From Pseudomonas mucidolens (lineage in GTDB: Bacteria; Pseudomonadota; Gammaproteobacteria; Pseudomonadales; Pseudomonadaceae), in NCBI RefSeq assembly GCF_900106045.1, contig NZ_LT629802.1:1736001-1800000 (forward strand): a stretch of 64,000 nucleotides of DNA, read 5' to 3'. The position numbers and the translations under genes were made by a program. Below are positions 10,524-11,849 of the stretch, in pieces. A model generated the notes under the pieces. The model did no database searches, was not told where the DNA came from, and was given only the letters and a program-made list of their open reading frames with translations. Position 1 is the first letter of the stretch; every line of letters starts with the position of its first letter.

Positions 10524-11849
10524 ATGCTCACTCTCATTCATCCCGCCCGCGAGTGGCGCCAGCGTCGTGACCAAGGCGTGCTGGATCAGGGCCAAGTGGA
10601 TATTGGCAAATTTCACCGCGGTGTCGGCGCCCTGGACCAGTTACGCGCTTTGCGCGACAGCCGGCAACGGCAAAGACCCCTGGCGCTGAACCTGCAATGG
10701 CCGGCGGGCATTTCTGCGAGTGACTACCTACGCGGCCTGGAGCAAGAGATACGCCTGGTCGAGCGTCATCTGGGTAGCCGTCAGTCGGTGGATCAATTTC
10801 ACTGGGGCGGGGCGATCCCGGCCATGGCCGATCTTCAGCGGCTGATGAACTACCTGCACAGTCGCCTGCATTTTCTCGAGCACGATCAGGGCGACTACAG
10901 CATCGATTTGGATCCGCTGCACACGGGGTGGGCCACCATGGGGCGTCTGCGAGAGCTGGGCTTCAACCACATCAGCATCGGCGTGCCTGATGCCAGTGCC
11001 GACGTCGCGCCCTCGGTGACCGGTTATCAAGATCCGGCACCCATCCAGTCGCTGATCGACGCGGCGCGCACGTTCGGCTTTCGCTCGGTGAATGTCGACC
11101 TGGGCTACGGGCATGCGTGGCAGACGTGCGACAGTTTCGGGTTGAAGCTGGACAGCCTGATCGCCCTGGAACCTGATCGCATACGGGTGTTCGATTACGC
11201 CCAGGCGCCACGGCGCTATCAGCCGCAAGCGCTCCGTGCGTTGTCCAGGGATACGGACAAAAGTGCGATGCGCCATATGGCATTCCAACGCCTGGAGACC
11301 GCGGGCTATCACTACATCGGCCTGGGCCAGTTCGTACGCCCTGACGATGACTTGGCGCTGGCCCAGGAGCGTGGGCGGCTGAGTCGCAACTGCGAGGGGT
11401 TTACGCGGCATGGCTATTGTGACCACGTAGGTTTTGGCCTGGGAGCCATCAGCCAGATCGACGCCCTGTACACGCAAAACGCTGATGACTTGGCGCTCTA
11501 CTGTCAGCAACTGGACAACGGCCTGCTCCCCACCGCCTGCGGCTGGCGCTGCGAGTCCGGTGAGCAGATTCGCCAGCACGTCATGGAGCGTTTGGCCTGT
11601 GATCTGGAGCTGGACATCCAGGCGCTGGAGCGTCGCTACGGGCTGGACTTTCGCCGCTACTTCTCGGCGATCTGGCCGTTGCTGGAGCACCTGCACCAGG
11701 ACGGCCTGATCGACTTGTCCGAGCGTTTCCTCTGTGTGCTGCCCGCAGGGCGCCATCAGGTGGAAGCCCTTTGCGCGTTGTTTGACCGGGCCGGCAGCGC
11801 TGTCCCTCCTTGCTCCAATGACGAGACGATCGACCATGAATGCGTTTGA
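10524..11849 (+). CDS. HemN-like protein lacking the radical-SAM cysteine motif
   Basis: The 441-residue protein aligns along its length with the HemN encoded next to it: FHWGGAIPAMADLQRLM against LHLGGGTPTYLDDTQLAELM; YSIDLDPLH against FSIEVDPRT; LGFNHISIGV against LGFNRLSFGV; AGYHYIGLGQFVRPDDDLALA against [21 protein letters not shown]. The region that should hold C-x3-C-x2-C is replaced by a cysteine-free stretch (LNLQWPAGISASDYL). It therefore cannot bind the radical-SAM 4Fe-4S cluster in the usual way. GGAG precedes the ATG at 10524, and its end overlaps hemN by 14 bases. It may be a partner, heme carrier or regulator of HemN; function unknown. Confidence 0.8.
   Translation: MLTLIHPAREWRQRRDQGVLDQGQVDIGKFHRGVGALDQLRALRDSRQRQRPLALNLQWPAGISASDYLRGLEQEIRLVERHLGSRQSVDQFHWGGAIPAMADLQRLMNYLHSRLHFLEHDQGDYSIDLDPLHTGWATMGRLRELGFNHISIGVPDASADVAPSVTGYQDPAPIQSLIDAARTFGFRSVNVDLGYGHAWQTCDSFGLKLDSLIALEPDRIRVFDYAQAPRRYQPQALRALSRDTDKSAMRHMAFQRLETAGYHYIGLGQFVRPDDDLALAQERGRLSRNCEGFTRHGYCDHVGFGLGAISQIDALYTQNADDLALYCQQLDNGLLPTACGWRCESGEQIRQHVMERLACDLELDIQALERRYGLDFRRYFSAIWPLLEHLHQDGLIDLSERFLCVLPAGRHQVEALCALFDRAGSAVPPCSNDETIDHECV

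Follow-up and report, generated by a model that had tools for sequence, protein, structure and literature searches.

The gene investigated in this study lies within a window of 64 kb, which is the whole stretch of DNA that was analysed, and occupies positions 10524..11849 of the + strand, with an ATG at 10524 and a stop codon that ends at 11849. It encodes a HemN-fold pseudoenzyme of 441 aa in which the radical-SAM cysteines are absent. A perfect Anr/Dnr box (TTGATGCATATCAA, 10452..10465, + strand, 0 mismatches) is located 58 bp ahead of its start codon, and the window as a whole holds 12 matches to this box with at most one mismatch, as compared with an average of 0.85 and a maximum of 4 over 100 shuffled versions. 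The end of the pseudoenzyme frame overlaps by 14 bases (11836-11849) with the start of hemN2 (11836..13221, + strand, ATG 11836), an intact oxygen-independent coproporphyrinogen III oxidase of 461 aa with the motif CQSLCYYCGC, which scored 590 bits against a cut-off of 325 in the profile search with TIGR00538.

Just upstream of the pseudoenzyme, a gene for a small membrane protein was detected (9971..10414, + strand, 147 aa, working label CopD), which has a perfect Anr/Dnr box of its own at 9896-9909. A paralogue of this protein with 43% identity was also noticed beside nnrS (31364-31834), and both small membrane proteins gave no match to Pfam or NCBIfam profiles. On the other side of the pair, the end of the nir cluster faces hemN2 with nirN (13405..14865, - strand), a name that comes from reading its sequence, by which it comprises a cytochrome c and a d1-type domain; the PF02239 match of nirN (G000:C1:1749435-1750487) corresponds to positions 13435-14487 of the window. 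Behind hemN2, at 13270-13380, two inverted GAGCTTGCTCGCGAA-like units were seen, which are REP-like by eye. The window constitutes a denitrification island, in which nirN to nirS lie downstream of the pseudoenzyme on the opposite strand and are followed by nor, dnr, nnrS, norR, moa/moe, U32-peptidase/SCP2 (ubiUVT-like) and nos genes, several of these names having been read from sequence. Two further perfect Anr/Dnr boxes are found at 24892-24905 near norC and at 39338-39351 before nosR, and a pyridoxamine-phosphate-oxidase-like gene (34034-34756) sits between norR and moaB, the slot which the pseudoenzyme takes in another Pseudomonas clade.

Fold, origin and spread of the family

We observed that the cluster loop of HemN2, PFCQSLCYYCGCHKIIT, corresponds to PAGISASDYL in the pseudoenzyme of the window, so that its cysteines were lost by deletion of the loop and not by substitution alone. 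The site of the deleted [4Fe-4S] loop (10680..10739, + strand, codons 53-72) measures 20 residues vs 37 in 18 of 18 HemN sequences. Among 188 distinct full-length copies of the family, the length of this region ranges from 19 to 38 residues, and CX3CX2C was found nowhere in any of them; this set omits proteins shorter than 410 aa and 10 loci, namely eight broken ones, one truncated by the end of its contig, and L099, the intermediate that is described below. Five distant copies (L169-L173) stand outside the set and are likewise without the cysteine motif. The N-terminal segment GPRYTSYPTA, invariant in 18/18 HemN, has also been lost, and for this reason the ligand binding of the pseudoenzyme may differ altogether from that of HemN.

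Despite the loss of the cluster, the HemN fold is retained in the predicted structure. The AlphaFold2 model (pLDDT 81.1, pTM 0.80, 39 sequences) aligned with E. coli HemN (1olt), the closest solved relative, at TM 0.80/0.82 and E 2.8e-35, the second-best structure being much weaker (3.4e-05), and the HemN_C domain PF06969 is present with 37.5 bits vs a cut-off of 24. In sequence, the pseudoenzyme shares 33% identity with its neighbour HemN2 over residues 65-421 (E 5e-66), and its alignments with HemN1, the other Pseudomonas HemN type, are longer, mostly covering residues 29-422, with 44-48% identity among the matches listed. The scores remained below the cut-offs of TIGR00538 (HemN, 261.9 vs 324.95 bits), TIGR00539 (HemW, 44.9 vs 205.4 bits) and Radical_SAM PF04055 (19.2 vs 29.5 bits, the match beginning at profile position 27), and TIGR04419 (PsgB), which HemN2 matches at 23 bits, gave no match to the pseudoenzyme at E up to 1. 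Membership of HemW or PsgB was rejected on these profile scores. The basic observation of the initial annotation, an intact frame of 441 aa with a HemN fold, a lost radical-SAM cluster motif, a perfect Dnr/Anr box and a 14-base overlap with hemN, is borne out by these data, and without cluster and SAM site the pseudoenzyme would be unlikely to oxidise coproporphyrinogen III.

With respect to its origin, a branch with 100/100 support separated all 26 sampled copies from the other rows of a 45-row tree. This group was joined to the six HemN1 rows (97/97) with the HemN2 type outside; the tree does not recover HemN1 as a single clade, and the branch of its HemW outgroup is long. As judged from this tree, the family is of single origin beside the Anr-type HemN1 and not the neighbouring HemN2. 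The candidate explanation of a duplicate of HemN2 was rejected by this tree, and the tie to the adjacent HemN that had been drawn at first gives way to a grouping with HemN1, the Anr type.

Relatives at E 1e-20 or better numbered 208, and none of the 120 of those listed contains CX3CX2C. Copies are held by 87 of the 398 genomes of the same genus, having been chosen from the match table by a score above that of the HemN1 of the same genome; the copy of G017 is partial, while G258, G288 and G240 were judged by reading the sequence and G302 from a broken partial match. What had been presented as one gene is instead a widespread, conserved Pseudomonadaceae family. In a further genus of Pseudomonadaceae (g15, probably Stutzerimonas-like), a distant cysteine-less copy with 40-43% identity was recognised in the four genomes read, and a ferrochelatase gene was noticed by eye within 4.5 kb of it in two of the four loci (L169, L170). 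At the level of the order, 92 of 145 genomes matched at E 1e-75 or better, and of 12 loci inspected among these matches, one of which is that of the window, the other 11 carry the cysteine motif in 11/11. A search of plasmid DNA returned only one match of 52 bases, inside a hemN. Two HemN proteins, L108 (G316) and L174 (G456), were seen to keep CX3CX2C without the fourth cysteine of CX3CX2CXC (CNSACFHCD and CASVCYHCR, respectively).

Denitrification genes and the neighbouring hemN2

The neighbourhoods were read for 86 of the 87 genomes (G210 was left out), and for 60 loci the reading extended 8 kb to either side, or as far as the contig reached. In 78/86 copies, an Anr/Dnr box with at most one mismatch is present in the 260 bp that precede the match. 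The boxless copies are L091-L097 and L099, and in seven of these eight the pseudoenzyme is flanked by norR and moaB, a clade in which no hemN directly adjoins it. Of the 51 loci L040-L090, 48 have the gene for the small membrane protein ahead of the pseudoenzyme. The surroundings out to 8 kb contain a nir, nor, nos, dnr or nnrS gene at 38 of the 51, and no such gene was found at the other 13, indicating that the tie to denitrification is often that of a shared genome and not of adjacency.

Across the 398 genomes, nirS (PF02239) was detected in 66 and cNorB in 86, and one or the other is present in 80 of the 87 genomes with the pseudoenzyme vs 8 of the 311 without it, a comparison for which Fisher p values overstate independence, as they do for the HemN2-linked decay given below, because the genomes are related. 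Among the eight denitrifier genomes scored as lacking a copy, G258 has a divergent cysteine-less copy and G302 a broken remnant. Seventeen genomes hold the pseudoenzyme and norB with no nirS (nirK in 6/17); 16 of these copies are unbroken, with only that of G350 broken, and heme d1 is therefore not the sole role of the gene. A dedicated heme d1/NirS factor was rejected on account of these 17 genomes.

The initial annotation had named scattered homologues as a sign against its proposal; instead, hemN2 lies directly downstream in 65 of the 86 copies, often with an overlap of 14 or 4 bp. When the 11 genomes without hemN2 beside the pseudoenzyme were searched whole, a HemN2 orthologue was found in 0/11, the best matches being HemN1-like at 47-49%, and seven of the 11 keep an intact pseudoenzyme, which argues that HemN2 is not an obligate partner. 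Broken copies are commoner in these genomes (4/11) than beside hemN2 (3/65), an imbalance that speaks for some link to HemN2. The earlier idea of a dimer partner survives in part: some link of the two proteins is likely, whereas an obligate partnership is not, and an obligate HemN2 subunit was rejected on the seven intact copies.

The order of the genes and the pattern of decay would both suit a regulatory or stabilising partner of active HemN1 or HemN2, that is, a heteromer whose live enzyme is tuned or shielded by its inactive twin, a behaviour known of other pseudoenzymes. Yet intact copies persist in genomes devoid of HemN2, HemN2 occurs without the pseudoenzyme in G013 and G316, the copies of the norR-moaB clade are not directly beside hemN, and E. 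coli HemN is a monomer, all of which make such a partner rather unlikely.

Remodelled barrel, selection and decay

Comparison of the 18 HemN with the 188 family copies revealed eleven positions that are fixed differently, at 90% or more on each side: L92F, Q155P, I194G, P198A, T208K, L250R, D268G, L272R, E276D, F290C and Y293F. G194, K208 and G268 are present in 188/188 family copies, and such newly fixed residues point to re-tooling more than to decay. Mapping by alignment placed P155 (185/188), G194 (188/188) and C290 (175/188) at Q172, I211 and F310 of E. coli HemN, which we take to be SAM-contact residues, a role reportedly described for them by Layer in 2003. D192, the equivalent of E. 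coli HemN D209, is conserved in 188/188. C290 also opens a C-x5-H-x2-C-D-H stretch (11391..11426, + strand, codons 290-301) whose C290, H296, C299 and H301 could be metal or heme ligands, going by the residues themselves; H301 is found in 169/188 copies and together with C290 in 164/188, and HemN has F and L at these two positions in 18/18.

The first-branching copy, L099 of genome G288 (G288:C41, reversed match at 8001 of the locus), still has the loop, as YLHLPFGGGIGYCCCDQVITKD, in which glycine has replaced the first two cysteines; it has G268 and not G194 or K208. The order which the sequences suggest is that the cysteines would have been substituted, then the loop deleted and then the barrel remodelled.

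If the barrel had been adapted to a different reaction, perhaps with C290-H296-C299-H301 as a metal site, the protein would be a new cluster-free enzyme. The eleven fixed changes, I194G, T208K, D268G and F290C among them, and the pairing of C290 with H301 speak for it, but these two residues are not invariant, L173 and the intermediate L099 having neither, and we know of no precedent for a cluster-free enzyme with the HemN fold, so that this explanation is doubtful.

Selection on the pseudoenzyme was assessed in 59 pairs of four groups, giving 58 ratios. Its dN/dS ranges from 0.046 to 0.190 (median 0.134), compared with 0.033-0.099 (median 0.061) for hemN2 in the same genomes, and it lies above that of hemN2 in 56 of the 58 pairs; values of 0.05-0.19 indicate that the protein is under selection, being constrained, though less so than hemN2. 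Of the 85 assessable copies, 77 look intact and eight are truncated or carry stops, a copy being judged as broken from frame length and internal stops. Frameshifts and neutral evolution, which had also been named beforehand as signs against a function, are not what was found, dN/dS being far below 1, and a sequencing error or a pseudogene was rejected on the same counts.

The higher dN/dS relative to hemN2, the eight damaged copies and the mere remnant in G302 are what a functionless, decaying duplicate, retained through chance or polarity on hemN2, might be expected to leave; such a duplicate is very improbable, being contradicted by the purifying selection, by the predominance of intact copies, by the new residues fixed throughout the family and by intact copies with no hemN2 downstream. 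That the protein is still a radical-SAM enzyme, with its cluster held by other cysteines of the variable loop, is scarcely credible. The 2-4 cysteines in the loop region of 78/188 copies speak for it; against it, this region has none in 61/188, the copy of the window included, the SAM-contact positions are replaced and the PF04055 score is below its cut-off.

Known relatives and putative role

The gene almost certainly encodes a HemN-derived protein without catalytic centre that is kept by selection. The non-catalytic role proposed in the initial annotation is supported as probable by the intact frame, the loss of the cluster, the Anr/Dnr-type box and the selection taken together, and this is probably a new job in the supply or handling of heme during nitrate respiration.

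Among known systems, HemN/CgdH (TIGR00538, 1olt) resembles the pseudoenzyme in its whole fold (TM 0.80), the HemN_C domain, the Anr/Dnr-type box and the sequence ancestry, the pseudoenzyme standing beside or inside Pseudomonas HemN1 in the tree. It differs in that the pseudoenzyme has neither the [4Fe-4S] cysteines nor the SAM-contact positions nor GPRYTSYPTA, and scores below the TIGR00538 cut-off. HemN1 is placed in the Anr core regulon in the cited passages of PMC6588701, and for Burkholderia a DNR site ahead of hemN is mentioned in those of PMC1274295. HemW and C. jejuni CgdH2 are HemN-family proteins that are said to bind heme and not to oxidise coproporphyrinogen, a likeness that the pseudoenzyme may share as regards heme. 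CgdH2 is a heme-binding protein that acquires heme from ferrochelatase (PMC10320005), and it keeps LYxHxPFCxxxCxxCxF, unlike the pseudoenzyme family, from which the cluster motif is absent. HemW is set apart by the low score on its model, as reported above. PsgB ("HemN-related non-iron pseudo-SAM protein") is by name alone a cluster-less HemN relative, and this name signifies that such a relative had already been named before; since the pseudoenzyme does not match TIGR04419, its cluster loss is probably separate from that of PsgB. No published description of a cysteine-less HemN family was found in the open-access literature searched, a scope outside which most subscription papers lie.

We tentatively favour, with a probability of roughly 0.4, a cluster-free HemN pseudoenzyme that would bind a tetrapyrrole and serve as a carrier or regulator in anaerobic cells exposed to NO. 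The pseudoenzyme, which shares one origin with the Anr-type HemN1, has lost the [4Fe-4S] loop together with several SAM-contact positions and has fixed new residues in the barrel, and according to this proposal it may have kept a tetrapyrrole-binding cavity with porphyrinogen, porphyrin or heme as the ligand. Without catalysing a reaction, it would carry or regulate heme or its late intermediates, beside HemN1 and, where present, HemN2, and would be needed when denitrifying cells require much heme for Nir/Nor and NO threatens the [4Fe-4S] HemN. Having no cluster, it would itself be insensitive to NO and O2, and it would be neither a required HemN2 subunit nor specific to heme d1.

Several observations count against a carrier or regulator of this kind. 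Six nirS/norB-positive genomes (G013, G054, G248, G307, G316 and G329) hold no trace of the pseudoenzyme, their best matches carrying the cysteine motif. Seven genomes have the pseudoenzyme and neither nirS nor norB; the copies of G022, G285 and G360 are truncated, G360 having nirK, and four are unbroken, and no nosZ match was obtained in the seven by a search that had no positive control of its own. The unbroken copies in G032, G071, G279 and G337, with no match to nirS, cNorB, nirK or nosZ, also count against it, as do the g15 copies, for which the four loci read (L169, L170, L171 and L172) show no link to denitrification genes, no denitrification cluster having been recognised within about 6 kb.

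The fuller version of the carrier proposal is put forward with somewhat less assurance still, namely that Pseudomonas denitrifiers possess a cluster-free HemN-fold family which arose by stepwise radical-SAM loss from an Anr-type HemN, and whose re-tooled barrel might form a tetrapyrrole carrier or sensor that withstands NO and adjusts the supply of heme to NO respiration. To our knowledge, radical-SAM pseudoenzymes are rarely documented, and the movement of reactive porphyrinogens and heme inside bacterial cells is, as far as we know, a largely open question. The family offers a compact case in genetically tractable bacteria of soil and water: it arose once, an intermediate survives, selection is clear, the association with denitrification is strong and an operon is at hand.

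The name "coproporphyrinogen III oxidase" is given to a relative in at least one public record, and likewise in many source names among the relatives listed; with a dead copy recorded in this manner, pathway models may count it as a live enzyme. In the water isolate P. mandelii JR-1, the annotation of the gene pair reads coproporphyrinogen III oxidase and hemN, and the pair is carried together with the gene for the small membrane protein and with nir and nos genes on the 410-kb plasmid NZ_CP005961.1 (L189/L190). On this plasmid, a Tn3-family transposase and a mer operon were observed near the nir-nos genes and the pair.
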